Positions 34,786 to 40,771 of a DNA stretch of 64,000 bases are shown piece after piece. Each line of letters starts with the position of its first letter. Positions within the stretch are counted from its first letter, which is position 1. The notes beneath the pieces were generated by a model. The model had not been told where the DNA came from. It did not search any database and saw nothing but the letters and a program-made list of their open reading frames with translations. Source of the DNA: Erysipelotrichaceae bacterium. GTDB taxonomy: Bacteria > Bacillota_I > Bacilli_A > Erysipelotrichales > Erysipelotrichaceae. A program made the translations under genes and the position numbers. The stretch covers positions 1-64,000 of the forward strand of contig JAFTCJ010000006.1 of NCBI GenBank assembly GCA_017454765.1, written 5' to 3'.

Positions 34786-36630
34786 ATGAAGGTGAATGTT
34801 ATGAAAAAGTTATTAGTATTACTGATGATTCTTCTGCTTCTGACTTCCTGTGCAGGTAAGAAATCTTCCAAAAACGATCCTGTTTCACAGGACGGAAAAT
34901 ATTATATTCAGAAGATAAAGGAGTATGAGGTCAGAAAGAAGAATACGGCCAATACCACGGATAACAAGGAGTTCGATGCTTTCCTGGACAAGGTCTTTGT
35001 GGAAGCCATGGAAGCCGATTACATGACCATGCATTTCAATGTCATCGACTACAAGAGCTACGGCATCGATAAGCCGCCGGTGGATCTGGGTGAGCTGTCT
35101 TATTCTTTTGATGAAGAAAACTTCAATTATATGAAAGATCAGCTGGAGGAGCTGCAGGGTTTTGATTTCGATTCCCTGTCTTACCGCCAGCAGTACGACT
35201 ATGAGGCTCTGGAGTATTCCCTGTATGAGACACTGGCAGATTACTGCTACTACAGATATAATTTCCTGGTCTCCACCGGAAGCTGTCTTCCGGAGAACCT
35301 GATCTCCAATTTTACCGATTATACGTTCTATGATGCGGAGTCAGTCGATGATTATCTGACTTGTCTGAAAGATATCGACCGTTATCTGGATGATATGCTG
35401 ACTTATACTCAAGCACAGGCCAAGGATAAGCTGGGACCTCTGGATTCCTGGATCGACTATACTCAAGATGCCTGCAAGGGCGTTCTCAACAAGACTGAGG
35501 ACAATGAACTCATCGTTTCTTTCGACAAGCGTCTGGCGCAGCTCGACTGGCTCAGTGATTCCCAGAAGGAAGCTTACAGCAAGGAAAACAGGGAAACTGT
35601 CCTGAACGAAGTCCTTCCGGCTTATCAGAAGGTTCTCGATGAAATCGAAAAGTACAGAGGAAAGAAAAAGACCAACGACTATGCGCTGTATAAACTGGAT
35701 AAGGATTACGCGGAACTGGTCTATATCCTCAGGGGAAGCAACAACAAGGATCTGGAGACTGTTTTCCAGGAACTCAAGGACAATCTGTCCCTTTTGGAAG
35801 CAGAATATGTTTCCTGTTTCTATGATTCCGATGCCTATGAGAAGTATCAGGAAGCCATGGATGGGAAAGGTGCCGTGTCTTTGGTCGGAAAGGACTGTCT
35901 GGAATATCTTCGTCTGAATCTGGTCACTTACTTCCCTGATCTGGGCGATGTGGAATATACCGTCGAGGAACTCGATCCGGATACGGCACCTTCGACCGTG
36001 ATCGCTTACTACTGGCCCTCACCGATCGATAACCACAACCAGAATATCATCCGTACCAATCCGAACAACATGTCTCCCGGTTATGAGACTTACGGAACGC
36101 TTGCGCATGAGGGCTTCCCGGGCCATCTGTACCAGCATGTTTATTATTACAAAACCAATCCGCACAATTTCCGCAGTGCGATCGGCTTTATCGGCTATAC
36201 CGAAGGCTGGGCCGTCAATTCGCAGTACTATGCCTTCCAGTTTGCGGATATCGGAAGTGCATATGCTGCAGCAGCCGTTTCCTTCGAGGATGCCTACTAC
36301 TTCATCCTGTATTCGATCATCGATATGGGCGTCAACTATTTCGGATGGACAGCCAAGGATATCAGCAAGTCTTTTGAAGAGGAATCCATGCTGTTCAACT
36401 TCTCGGAGTCCGATGCGAATTACTTCCGTAATTTCCTGATCGAGATGCCGGGCACTTACTGCTCCTACGGTATCGGTTCTTCCAATTTCATGACTCTGTG
36501 TCAGGAGACCCAGAACAAGATGGGCGACCGATTTGACTTTGTTTCATATCATGACGCTCTGCTGAAAAACGGACCGTTGCCTTTCAATATCCTGGAAGGT
36601 GCAGTGGAAGAGTATATTTCAGCTCACTGA
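34786..36630 (+). CDS. DUF885 metallopeptidase-like lipoprotein
   Basis: A 614-residue exported lipoprotein with lipobox ending at Cys22 (LLLTSC). The DUF885 signature HEGFPGH (residues 441-447) is a HExxxGH-like zinc site, so a peptidase role outside the cell is likely. Two candidate starts: ATG 34786 (leaderless position) and ATG 34801 (with GAAGGTG). The 3' end overlaps by 7 bases the stop of the convergent DUF285 gene, with no terminator between them. Confidence 0.85.
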   Translation: MKVNVMKKLLVLLMILLLLTSCAGKKSSKNDPVSQDGKYYIQKIKEYEVRKKNTANTTDNKEFDAFLDKVFVEAMEADYMTMHFNVIDYKSYGIDKPPVDLGELSYSFDEENFNYMKDQLEELQGFDFDSLSYRQQYDYEALEYSLYETLADYCYYRYNFLVSTGSCLPENLISNFTDYTFYDAESVDDYLTCLKDIDRYLDDMLTYTQAQAKDKLGPLDSWIDYTQDACKGVLNKTEDNELIVSFDKRLAQLDWLSDSQKEAYSKENRETVLNEVLPAYQKVLDEIEKYRGKKKTNDYALYKLDKDYAELVYILRGSNNKDLETVFQELKDNLSLLEAEYVSCFYDSDAYEKYQEAMDGKGAVSLVGKDCLEYLRLNLVTYFPDLGDVEYTVEELDPDTAPSTVIAYYWPSPIDNHNQNIIRTNPNNMSPGYETYGTLAHEGFPGHLYQHVYYYKTNPHNFRSAIGFIGYTEGWAVNSQYYAFQFADIGSAYAAAAVSFEDAYYFILYSIIDMGVNYFGWTAKDISKSFEEESMLFNFSESDANYFRNFLIEMPGTYCSYGIGSSNFMTLCQETQNKMGDRFDFVSYHDALLKNGPLPFNILEGAVEEYISAH

Positions 36631-38315
36631 TACCAGTCGGGGACCGGGCTTGAGATCAGAGATCCCGCATTGTCTCCGAATGTTTCCGTCATATTCAAGA
36701 CACTGGACACGTTCCAGTGTTTTAATTTGTCAATGTCAAAGCGGTAAGTCCCGTAGAAGGCATAGGAGATATCTTCAAGAGAATCTGTATTCCAGGCAGA
36801 CAGATCACAGCTGAGATACTGGTTTTCATAGAAGATGTATGAAATGTCTTTCAAAGATGAAGTATCCAGGGAACCGATGCCGATGATATCCGTAAGAGGA
36901 GATAGTCTTCCGGTCTCAGTGAAACGAAACATCGAGGATGCGCTGATGAGATTTCCGCTGTCCCAGCCGCTGATATCTAAAACGGTCAGTGTATAGGAGT
37001 TTTCAAACATGTGGGACATGTCTCTTACACTGCTGACATCCCAGCCGTCAAGATCAAGTACAGAAGGAAGGGCGGATGCACTGTTCTGGAACATGTAGGA
37101 CAGATCTTCACAGGCATCAGAGACTTCCCAGAGGGAGATATCGCCGCAGGAAACAAGTTCCGCTGTATTGGAAAACATGTAGGCAAAGCTGTTGACGTTT
37201 TCAACGTTCCAGCCGGAGAGGTCACCGACCGATGAAAGTTTGGAACAGTTGCGGAAGAGTTTCGACATGTCTGTGACATCATCGGTCTGCCAAAGGGAAA
37301 GATCGCCGATGTTTCTGAGCTTGCTGCAGGAGTCGAAGAGACCGGAAAGATCTTCACATTCTGACAGATCCCAGCCATCGAGATTTCCTGTGCTCGTGAG
37401 TGAAGCACAGCCCGCAAACATGTCTTTGAAGCTTTCAACGGATGAAACATCCCACGAAGTAAGCGAGAGGGTCTTCAGTCTGAAACAGAAAGCAAACATG
37501 GAACGCATGTCCGTGACCGATGAAGTATCCCAATTACTGATCCTGATCGTTGTGATATCAAGGCAGTTGCTGAAAAGATAACTCATATCACTGATGTTTT
37601 GCGTATCCATATCTTCCAGATCACCGATCACGGACAGAAGATGGTTATCGGAAAACATTCCGCTGATATTGCGGCATTGTGAGAAGTCGACACAGTCAAG
37701 ATCGCTGATCGAAGTCAGTGATGAAAGACCTGAAAAAGCCCCGGACATGTTTTCATTGGCGATCATCGGTTCACTCCTGCTATTGGAAATGATCACATCA
37801 CCTCCGTCGATATAAAGTAAGATCGAATCATCCTGGGCTAAAGAAACGTCATAAGATGCATTGAAACTGACCATGTCATTGGAAAAGGTGATGCTTTGAG
37901 GATCGATATCCGAAAGGATCTGATTGAGCTGTGTTCCGGGGATCAGGACATTGGACGGGTAATGGTGTTCCAGACCGATCGTGACCATCAGATCGCAGCT
38001 CCAGTCTCCTGCCGGGAGTTCTGTCGTATGGATCGTGACCGTTCTTGACGATTCATCTCCGGCTTCATAGCTGATGTGGTTTCCCGAAAGAGTACCGCTG
38101 ATATCGTCTCTGCCGTGAGAATCACTCAGTGAAAAAGAATCAGGCAGATCGATGTAAAGCGTCTCATCGGGATCGAGATTGTTTTCCGTCACGATGATCT
38201 GAAAAGACTGTGTCTCATTCAGGTCCACAGACTGCGGTATCTGTATCACATAGGAATCGTCACAGGGGGCCGTGAGAGATAATATCAGAACAATGCCAGA
38301 AAAAGATTTAAACAT
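36624..38315 (-). CDS. DUF285 (BspA-like) repeat surface protein
   Basis: A 563-residue secreted protein. ATG 38315 is preceded by AGGGGGT. A short signal peptide is followed by a beta-rich domain (about 20-110) with DSYVIQIPQSVDL and LPAGDWSCDLMVTIGLE, which resembles the small secreted protein encoded upstream at 38605. From about 185 there are 14 DUF285-type repeats with the motif xMF (MSGAFSG, MSYLFSN, MRSMFAF, FKDMFAG and others). No LPXTG or TM anchor. It is most likely an adhesin or tip protein; the role is inferred. Confidence 0.72.
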   Translation of the reverse strand: MFKSFSGIVLILSLTAPCDDSYVIQIPQSVDLNETQSFQIIVTENNLDPDETLYIDLPDSFSLSDSHGRDDISGTLSGNHISYEAGDESSRTVTIHTTELPAGDWSCDLMVTIGLEHHYPSNVLIPGTQLNQILSDIDPQSITFSNDMVSFNASYDVSLAQDDSILLYIDGGDVIISNSRSEPMIANENMSGAFSGLSSLTSISDLDCVDFSQCRNISGMFSDNHLLSVIGDLEDMDTQNISDMSYLFSNCLDITTIRISNWDTSSVTDMRSMFAFCFRLKTLSLTSWDVSSVESFKDMFAGCASLTSTGNLDGWDLSECEDLSGLFDSCSKLRNIGDLSLWQTDDVTDMSKLFRNCSKLSSVGDLSGWNVENVNSFAYMFSNTAELVSCGDISLWEVSDACEDLSYMFQNSASALPSVLDLDGWDVSSVRDMSHMFENSYTLTVLDISGWDSGNLISASSMFRFTETGRLSPLTDIIGIGSLDTSSLKDISYIFYENQYLSCDLSAWNTDSLEDISYAFYGTYRFDIDKLKHWNVSSVLNMTETFGDNAGSLISSPVPDWYQ

Positions 38316-38559
38316 AAGCGACCCCCTGTGAAGCAATAGGAAGAACCGGACACCGGTGTGAAAAAAACAAATATGGTGTGTATGAGCAGAAAGGTTGTGG
38401 AGAATCCGATAAATCGGTGCCCGGCAATATATCAGACCGGATCATAAGACATGTTCCGGAATGTTTCGTGTGTTTTGTTTTTTCTTGATCATAAGCCTGC
38501 AGAGTGAAAGGGGAAGACGTCAGGCTTATGATGAAGAAGACAAAGATCATCTTTTTCAT
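38308..38559 (-). CDS. Small secreted protein, possibly degenerate
   Basis: An 83-residue frame with a good AAGGAG site and a clear signal peptide (MKKMIFVFFIISLTSSPFTLQA). The mature part (about 61 residues) has three cysteines and no recognisable domain, and it overlaps the next gene by 8 bases. It could be a short secreted peptide of the locus, or the remnant of a larger frame-shifted surface gene. No homologous region is obvious by eye. Confidence 0.45.
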   Translation of the reverse strand: MKKMIFVFFIISLTSSPFTLQAYDQEKTKHTKHSGTCLMIRSDILPGTDLSDSPQPFCSYTPYLFFSHRCPVLPIASQGVAYV

Positions 38560-38572
38560 CTTTTCTCCTTGT

Positions 38573-38593
38573 ATCAGGGATGCAGGCCCTGAT
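38573..38593 (-). promoter_or_regulatory. Intercistronic hairpin without T-tract
   Basis: ATCAGGG / CCCTGAT, 7-base loop, in the 45-base gap between the small secreted gene and the downstream genes. No T-run follows, so it looks like a processing or stabilising element that would raise the level of the upstream message over the downstream one. Confidence 0.5.
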
Positions 38594-38604
38594 GTGTTTT
38601 TGAT

Positions 38605-39075
38605 TTAGTCCGCCGGGATATTTTCCAAAGCGATCACGATCGGCAGATTGTAGCTGTAGTTGCCGGCAGCCAGTGCAGCATGGGTGACAGTGAAGACTGA
38701 CTTGATGCTGTCGCTGTAGTTTGCTTCCAGAGTGTCGGCTGCGAAGGTTCCGCCTGAGACATTGAGCGTCAGAGCGTAGCTTCTGTTACTTCCGTTGATG
38801 GTATCGGCCAGGGTATGGGTTCCGCTTCCGACACTGACAGAGAGCTGTTTGTCGGCAGCGATAGAGCCTTTGGCGAATACGTTGAACGTTGTTGAAGTCG
38901 CTGATACGTCGACTCTCAAAGGCAGTTTGACGGTGTATTGGGATGCGACTGCCGCATAGAGTTCGACGGTCGCTGATTCACCGGTAACTTCATTGTCGTT
39001 CTGATCGGCGAATACCGTAGAAGGCATCGCGATCATCAGCATTGATACGAATAATAGTGTTAAGATCTTTTTCAT
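38605..39075 (-). CDS. Small secreted beta-sandwich-like protein
   Basis: A 156-residue protein with a signal peptide ending STVFA and an AAGGAG site. The mature part has SQYTVKLPLRVDVSATSTTF, AKGSIAADKQLSV, and LAAGNYSYNLPIVIALE, a beta-rich layout I associate with small surface subunits in gut Bacillota. The N-terminal domain of the DUF285 protein at 36624 carries a similar pattern. Likely the abundant component of a surface structure; inferred. Confidence 0.6.
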   Translation of the reverse strand: MKKILTLLFVSMLMIAMPSTVFADQNDNEVTGESATVELYAAVASQYTVKLPLRVDVSATSTTFNVFAKGSIAADKQLSVSVGSGTHTLADTINGSNRSYALTLNVSGGTFAADTLEANYSDSIKSVFTVTHAALAAGNYSYNLPIVIALENIPAD

Positions 39076-39084
39076 GTTTGCTCC

Positions 39085-39573
39085 TTACTTTCTGATCAGG
39101 ACATCCTGTTTCTGCTGTACGCCGGACCATAAGAGGGCTTTGCTGTCCATGTCATAGGAAGAGATCGAATAGGTCAGCGTATGTTCACCTGCATTTAAAC
39201 AGCTGAAGGCATCGAAGTCTTCCATCTTGCCCGGTGCGATGAGATCGCTGCTGAAGAGGACTTCATCGTCATAAAGCACATCGAAACTGAGGAATACCTG
39301 ATTTTCTGATGGATTGATCAGATAAATGAAGGGTTCGTTTTTATCCAGAGTCAGACATCCGAATCCCATCAGTTCCGTATATGCCTCTTCCTGTTTTTCT
39401 TTATCTGTCGGCAGGACGATGTCTTTCTGATTTTCCGAGACTTTGAGGTCGCATGAGACCTGTGTCTTTTTCAATGTCTTCACAACGAAGAAACTGCCGA
39501 ATCCGATGACCAGGATCAGTACGCAGATGAGTACGAGGATCAGGTCCTGTTTTGACTGTCTTTTTTCTTTCAT
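39085..39573 (-). CDS. Membrane-anchored beta-rich protein of the surface locus
   Basis: A 162-residue protein with one N-terminal membrane helix (about 11-33) and an extracellular domain with NPSENQVFLSFDVLYDDEV and LNAGEHTLTYSISSYD. AAGGAG precedes the ATG. It is the first gene of the four-gene minus-strand set, 9 bases before the small secreted gene. It may anchor or help assemble the secreted partners. Not a recognised named family. Confidence 0.55.
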   Translation of the reverse strand: MKEKRQSKQDLILVLICVLILVIGFGSFFVVKTLKKTQVSCDLKVSENQKDIVLPTDKEKQEEAYTELMGFGCLTLDKNEPFIYLINPSENQVFLSFDVLYDDEVLFSSDLIAPGKMEDFDAFSCLNAGEHTLTYSISSYDMDSKALLWSGVQQKQDVLIRK

Positions 39574-39611
39574 AAAATTTCTCCTTCATATCTTTATTCG
39601 CCGGAAAAAGG

Positions 39612-39641
39612 GCAAAATCCTAATTATTTCTTCGATTTTGC
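39612..39641. repeat. Inverted repeat upstream of the surface locus
   Basis: GCAAAATC and GATTTTGC, perfect 8-bp arms around 14 bases, about 38 bases upstream of ATG 39573. On the minus strand a weak TTGCCC-17-GATATG promoter starts just downstream of this repeat. It may be a regulator site. Confidence 0.4.
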
Positions 39642-39643
39642 AT

Positions 39644-39670
39644 AAAAAAAGTCATATTTCTATGACTTTT
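39644..39670 (-). terminator. Intrinsic terminator of alr
   Basis: AAAAGTCATA / TATGACTTTT, 4-base loop, followed on the minus strand by seven T. Confidence 0.85.
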
Positions 39671-39694
39671 GCGTGTTTTATATCTGTTTTCGGC

Positions 39695-40771
39695 TTAAAA
39701 ACGGGGATCGATCCTGGCGATGACCTGGTGATCCTTGAGATAGTAGCGGGTCAGACGATCCGATAAAGAGGTAAAGAGTTCATATGTGATCGTTCCGAGC
39801 TGTCCGGCTCTTTCTTCGACATCGATATGTCCTCCCAGCAGTTCGACCTTGCATCCGACCGGGTGGTATGAATCGGTCAGGATCATCATCTGGTCCATGC
39901 AGATGCTGCCGACGATCGTGCCGTATTCGTTTTCACAATAGGCTTTCATGCCGGTATTGCTGCGGTAAAAACCGTCTGCGTAACCGATCGGGACAGTCAG
40001 CAGCCAGCCGTTTCCGTCGCTGGTGTAATGTCTGCCGTAGGATACGGTCTCTCCTGCCTGCAGTTTTTTGACCATGCTGACTTCGGAGCAGAGCTTCATG
40101 CAGGGCTTCAGCTCGCTTTCATGTGCACTGTAGCCCAGCAATCCCAGTCCGATGCGCTGGGCATTGCAGATATCATCATCGATCAATAAGGAAGCATCGG
40201 TCGCTGACATATGGATGTAACGGAAATCATAATTCAGGCCAAGGATGCATTCTTTAAAGGAAGCGTACTGTTTTCTGGAGTATTCCTCATCAAAATCGGC
40301 AGAAGAGAAATGCGACATGACGCCTTCGACAAGAGCGCCTTTTTCGATCAGCAGATCCAGGATTTGTTTTGCTTCTTCGATCTCGATGCCGATCCGGTTC
40401 ATGCCGGTATCGATCTTGAGGTGGACTTTCACGTCTTTGAGATCTGTCTTTTCGACGAATTCTCTGCTCAGGGTGACGATCGAGATATCGTTTTCCCTGA
40501 TGAGATCCATCACCGAAGAAGGAACGCATCCCAGGACCAGGATTTTGTCATCGATCCCGTTGTGACGCAGGTTAAGTGCTTCGTCCAGGGAAGATACGGC
40601 AAAGAAAGATACGCCGGCTTCTTTCAGTGTTTTTACTTCGGCAAGTGCACCGATTCCGTAGCCGTTTGCTTTGACGACACCGATCAGCTGTTTGCCGTTA
40701 CGCTCCATGAAATACCTCGCATTGGCTTTCAGAGCATCCAGATCAACTTCGATATATGAATTTCTGTACAT
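39695..40771 (-). CDS. alr: Alanine racemase
   Basis: A 358-residue PLP enzyme that makes D-alanine for the cell wall. Lysine 34 in GVVKANGYGIGA binds PLP; the MSHFSSADF and VPIGYADGFYR segments match the family. A -10 box lies 6 bases before ATG 40771 and no ribosome site is seen. Confidence 0.94.
   Translation of the reverse strand: MYRNSYIEVDLDALKANARYFMERNGKQLIGVVKANGYGIGALAEVKTLKEAGVSFFAVSSLDEALNLRHNGIDDKILVLGCVPSSVMDLIRENDISIVTLSREFVEKTDLKDVKVHLKIDTGMNRIGIEIEEAKQILDLLIEKGALVEGVMSHFSSADFDEEYSRKQYASFKECILGLNYDFRYIHMSATDASLLIDDDICNAQRIGLGLLGYSAHESELKPCMKLCSEVSMVKKLQAGETVSYGRHYTSDGNGWLLTVPIGYADGFYRSNTGMKAYCENEYGTIVGSICMDQMMILTDSYHPVGCKVELLGGHIDVEERAGQLGTITYELFTSLSDRLTRYYLKDHQVIARIDPRF

Follow-up and report, generated by a model that had tools for sequence, protein, structure and literature searches.

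How can a single transcript supply the anchor, bulk subunit and tip that surface organelles and adhesin complexes need in unequal amounts? The question is raised by an operon in the genome of a gut Erysipelotrichaceae genus, found on the minus strand of the window (the whole stretch of 64,000 nucleotides that was analysed, positions 1 to 64,000 of contig JAFTCJ010000006.1). What kind of complex it encodes, and whether its message carries signals of its own, are considered in turn.

Gene content and distribution of the operon

The four minus-strand frames listed by the initial annotation are present among the open reading frames of the window. TM (39085..39573) encodes a protein of 162 amino acids, predicted to have a single helix at the N-terminus and, outside the cell, a beta domain that is Ig/FnIII-like. 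SMALL1 (38605..39075) encodes a secreted protein of 156 amino acids, with a signal peptide and one domain predicted to be all-beta. It is followed by FRAG (38308..38559), a frame of 83 amino acids with a good Shine-Dalgarno sequence and a stop just past the ATG of TIP, and by TIP itself (36624..38315), which encodes a secreted protein of 563 amino acids made of a SMALL-like N-terminal domain (about 37944-38258) and 14 PARCEL/DUF285 repeats. The Shine-Dalgarno sequence of SMALL1 overlaps the stop codon of TM (TAAGGAG), and the two abut in most loci. Upstream of TM lie alr and a terminator-like hairpin that is found again in most relatives; downstream of TIP stands a convergent gene, which we take to be DUF885-like.

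A search for the gene set in other genomes had been proposed as a check, and co-occurrence was indeed found: the TM/SMALL1/TIP operon recurs in part of one genus, with relatives of TM in 15 of 36 genus genomes, and of SMALL1 or TM in about 16. Among 395 genomes drawn from the class, 3 contain a TM relative, including the window's own genome, and a scan of viral contigs gave none. The typical order is alr-TM-SMALL1-(SMALL2)-TIP-<DUF885; at one locus (L035), the module sits at another site, without alr. The comparative base is one genus, with 13 to 14 distinct loci, mostly from draft genomes. TM relatives also adjoin SMALL-domain genes in other contexts (L037, L038, L040 and L062), where the SMALL-domain proteins are of other kinds. 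Because TM relatives have SMALL-domain neighbours in these contexts too, TM probably works together with the SMALL domain.

Two of these contexts have features of their own. In the Erysipelotrichales genome G039 (L040:4864-5589), the gene after the TM relative encodes a secreted fusion of a ubiquitin domain, which is clear (Pfam ubiquitin, E 1.1e-22), with a SMALL-type domain. At L062:568-6902, it stands beside a 1938-amino-acid surface protein with a C-terminal SMALL-like domain, recognized by eye (YIVEIPKEVTI...KAGTYTGKLTF). In addition, genome G035 has two such loci (entries L030, L031 and L042), one of which looks identical to the locus of G013 in gene lengths and protein sequences; this may point to a MAG of mixed origin or to a recent transfer.

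An intact 140-amino-acid paralogue of SMALL1, SMALL2, lies between SMALL1 and TIP in eight loci, of which two are near-identical. SMALL2 is absent from the window's own clade, where FRAG occupies its place. FRAG begins much as SMALL2 does, with a Shine-Dalgarno sequence and a signal peptide, but its body has no similarity to SMALL2, its DNA is not convincingly similar either, and a sister genome (L024) has homologous DNA without an ATG and with frameshifts. The short secreted frame of the initial annotation is therefore not conserved, and we reject it as a genuine small gene. It is probably a remnant or a replacement sequence at the SMALL2 position, perhaps retained as a coupling frame, its stop lying at the TIP start. 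At another locus (L025), a different frame of 62 amino acids also ends at the TIP start, with an ATGA overlap.

Protein relationships and likeness to WxL clusters

SMALL1 and the N-terminal domain of TIP are homologous (HHalign 96.3%, E 2e-9), and the SMALL profile recovers the TIP domain when the genome is searched in six frames (E 6e-10), so that the resemblance proposed for these two proteins is upheld as a profile match. Its extension to TM, through the segment LNAGEHTLTYSI, was not confirmed: against these two, HHalign gives probabilities of 5% and 2%, that is, no detectable relation. What is conserved in the TM stretch encoding LNAGEHTLTYSI is its synonymous positions, which mark it as an RNA element. 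Because the genes co-occur and SMALL1 and TIP have a homologous domain, the products are likely to belong to one surface assembly headed by the PARCEL array.

The 14 repeats of TIP, as first counted, are PARCEL/DUF285 units by eye, and the tandem 25-residue repeats match Pfam DUF285 (260 bits, E 1.9e-78) and TIGR02167 (85 bits). The array belongs to the family of PARCEL/DUF285 surface proteins (PMC2996958), but differs in being fused to a SMALL-type domain and in sharing its operon with genes for an anchor and for a small partner protein. No DUF285 protein other than TIP was found in the genome. Near its C-terminus (window 36690-36740, and relatives), the codons for KHWNVSS are unusually conserved synonymously (O/E 1.84), and this stretch looks like a PARCEL-type palindrome.

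Structure prediction had also been proposed initially. From alignments of two to three sequences, the TM model has one helix and an Ig-like domain (pLDDT 56), whereas the AF2 model of SMALL (pLDDT 43) is too poor to use. At this pLDDT of 56, WxLIP ranks top in a Foldseek search with the TM model (E 0.012), but VIA gives only generic Ig/FnIII matches (Z up to 7.5). Profile searches for solved structural relatives found none.

WxL clusters encode a WxLIP with DUF916/DUF3324, a small WxL protein and a large WxL protein (PMC10599100). The present operon likewise combines a putative membrane anchor, in its case with a predicted Ig-like domain, a small single-domain secreted protein and a large adhesin that shares this domain, and it does so without a sortase signal: as first noted, LPXTG-type sorting signals, such as those of a sortase-assembled pilus, are absent from TM, SMALL1 and TIP. 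The likeness has its limits, however. SMALL1 and TIP have no Pfam or NCBIfam match to a WxL domain (the window's SMALL1 has no Trp), TM has none to DUF916/DUF3324, and PF11797 is found in 0 of the 36 genus genomes. Moreover, TM is predicted to have a single Ig-like domain after its N-terminal helix, and the common domain is N-terminal in TIP, whereas it is C-terminal in WxL proteins. The arrangement of anchor protein, small protein and large adhesin would thus be analogous to a WxL cluster.

The initial annotation had suggested a possible fibre, in which SMALL1 would polymerize, TIP would cap the polymer via its homologous domain and TM would anchor it. The homology itself, a segment preceding the SMALL1 domain that could donate a strand, and the presence of a second subunit gene, SMALL2, in eight loci all speak for such a scheme. 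However, we found no evidence for a polymer, the SMALL model is unusable in this respect, no sequence match to solved pilins was obtained and TM is not detectably related to its presumed partners. In addition, a WxL-type complex accounts for the identical gene set without a polymer, and WxL clusters have no demonstrated fibre. We therefore consider a fibre rather unlikely.

Conserved hairpins in the message

Three hairpins were found along the operon. HP1 (38573..38593, minus strand; ATCAGGG-CCTGCAT-CCCTGAT) lies directly 3' of the SMALL1 stop in each of 14 loci. Its loop, CCUGCAU, is invariant, and changes in its stem are compensated (ATCAGGG/CCCTGAT, GTCGGGG/CCCCGAT, ACCAAGG/CCTTGGT). Some loci have one or two additional loop bases 5' of CCTGCAT; with these left out of the alignment, covariation is 0.259 versus 0.135 in shuffled alignments, with 1 of 500 shuffles as high and four pairs changed on both sides; slid controls are lower. 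Sequence comparison thus strongly supports HP1 as a conserved RNA structure. The initial annotation had described a hairpin without T-tract after the small gene, as would suit a product made in excess; it is present, the transcribed strand has no T-tract, and its conservation and restriction to the operon fit gene-specific expression control. A Rfam scan of window positions 36000-40000 gave nothing above the gathering score.

Two other roles of HP1 were considered and rejected. A terminator on the operon strand is excluded by the absent T-tract, and a genome-wide repeat by the strict pattern, which occurs once in the window's genome; 20 inspected sites of a looser pattern are mostly in open frames, without a long matched stem. 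As a separate observation, in many genus genomes, operon-less ones included, the pattern GGN{0,3}CCTGCATCC clearly outnumbers its reversed control, and the sites that were read are mostly inside open frames.

HP0 (39182..39201, minus strand; TGTTTA-AATGCAGG-TGAACA) lies within the TM coding sequence, with the loop bases ATGCAGG at 39188-39194. The loop reads (A/G)AUGCAGG in 13 loci, and AUGCAGG is the exact complement of the HP1 loop, so that the two hairpins have a 7-nucleotide complement in 13 of 13 loci. Wherever TM is complete (13 loci), ATGCAGG lies in the codons for [N/D]-A-G, and no other 7-mer of the aligned TM, SMALL1 and TIP genes is invariant. Its Ala codon is GCA in 13 of 13 loci, whereas none of the 16 other Ala columns that are fully conserved (in alr, DUF885, SMALL1 and TIP) uses a single codon throughout. 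Among 3000 random 7-mers, none had an equally conserved complement. Given the amino acids and the codon usage, the chance of the loop is about 0.09-0.23 per locus; because the loci are related, the product of these chances is meaningless as a p-value.

The stem of HP0 also covaries (0.351 versus 0.228, 0 of 500 shuffles as high), with compensated changes, and RNAalifold finds HP0 unaided, with five double-change pairs across the whole fold. HP0 alone is not more stable than expected from synonymous-codon resampling in most loci, and L027 and L028 have a weak or displaced HP0 stem. The TM relatives without HP1 (L037 and L038) also have no ATGCAGG in TM. Two other explanations of the motif were discarded: a DNA inversion between the ATGCAGG/CCTGCAT inverted repeats, because SMALL1 has one orientation in all loci, and an internal Shine-Dalgarno role of GCAGGTGA in TM, for which the relatives have no consistent start codon.

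Taken together, these sequences point to a probable kissing contact between HP0 and HP1, bracketing SMALL1; the energy of the isolated duplex is -10 to -16 kcal/mol. As the bases that would kiss are the same in every locus, there is no compensatory change between the loops, and covariation does not prove the contact. For the same reason, the loops might instead be separate sites for a protein, an RNase or a trans-acting RNA, not paired with each other, as invariant loops on covarying stems would also fit protein sites. Yet two independent sites would have no need to match each other as exact reverse complements, and the complement is unique among the 7-mers of the aligned coding sequence in being invariant; we hold this explanation to be improbable. 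Least likely is that HP1 is an ordinary stabilizing hairpin and the complementarity in TM a product of chance and codon constraint: intercistronic hairpins are common and close relatives share codons, but the chance is 1 in 16384 for a given 7-mer, the invariance of HP1 extends beyond the stem to the loop, and in the SMALL genes the codons of the homologous Ala-Gly pair vary without restriction.

The third hairpin, HP2, concerns TIP. Its 5' arm (38320..38331, minus strand; TCACAGGGGGTC) includes the Shine-Dalgarno sequence of TIP, and its 3' arm (38260..38271, minus strand; GGCCCCCTGTGA) consists of the TIP codons for the last part of the signal peptide, so that the ribosome-binding site pairs with the coding sequence, over 12 bp in the window. 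When each genome keeps its own arms, the energies total -316 kcal/mol, versus a mean of -225 (sd 15.5) when arms are swapped between genomes, and 0 of 100,000 permutations were as low (p<1e-5). At L035, the pairing is retained with a wholly different sequence, AAGTTGAGGCA/TGCCTCAACTT. This pairing is therefore conserved by covariation, and HP2 is strongly supported as an RNA structure in comparisons of this kind.

Translational coupling is known to arise when a ribosome-binding site is paired with coding sequence and upstream translation opens the pairing (PMC6728339). The stop of SMALL2 overlaps or abuts the TIP start in 7 of 7 SMALL2 genomes compared, which is consistent with such coupling. 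HP2 is also kept in five relatives without SMALL2 (L024, L025, L027, L028 and L035). In three of them (L024, L027 and L035), no upstream frame that begins with ATG runs to the TIP start, so that coupling can be only part of the explanation.

Among known cases, the gnd ribosome-binding site has an internal complementary sequence, according to the citation in PMC6728339, and HP2 pairs in like manner. The infC-rpmI-rplT pseudoknot is a long-range RNA contact between cistrons (PMC10931766), and the HP0-HP1 contact would similarly reach an upstream coding region. It would differ from these long-range operon pairings in being loop-loop, in bracketing a whole cistron, in covering no start site and in having no known regulator protein. 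The 5' stem-loop of the papA pilin mRNA (Bricker and Belasco 1999, as cited in PMC3997798) offers a parallel to the logic proposed here, an RNA structure that lengthens the life of the message of one surface subunit. The structures, their position and the organism are different.

A proposed surface complex with its own stoichiometry control

We favour, with a probability of about 0.6, the reading that the products of the operon form an adhesin complex, anchored in the membrane at the cell surface, and that the mRNA itself controls their stoichiometry. TM would be the anchor, with its Ig-like domain outside the cell, SMALL1 the single-domain secreted partner, and TIP would display the PARCEL repeat array via a domain of the SMALL kind. 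On the message, the loops of HP0 and HP1 would kiss and close off a segment of roughly 600 nucleotides containing SMALL1, so that the message of the most abundant part would be protected or set apart; the effect would most simply be an altered lifetime. HP2 would hide the ribosome-binding site of TIP in its pairing with the signal-peptide codons, until a ribosome finishing SMALL2, or a substitute short frame, within HP2 opens the stem. TIP would then be made in proportion to upstream translation.

The more specific proposal, that a kissing loop with one half in an upstream coding sequence ring-fences one cistron and, together with a gated start, sets the anchor:subunit:adhesin ratios of an undescribed WxL-like complex, is put forward tentatively, at somewhat less than even odds. 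Three conserved hairpins in one mRNA could in this way set the amount of each part. The operon would be a compact and evolutionarily documented case, with one RNA structure written into the codons of another gene, and it points to a surface module of Erysipelotrichales, made of TM and the SMALL domain, that is unnamed in the protein libraries searched.
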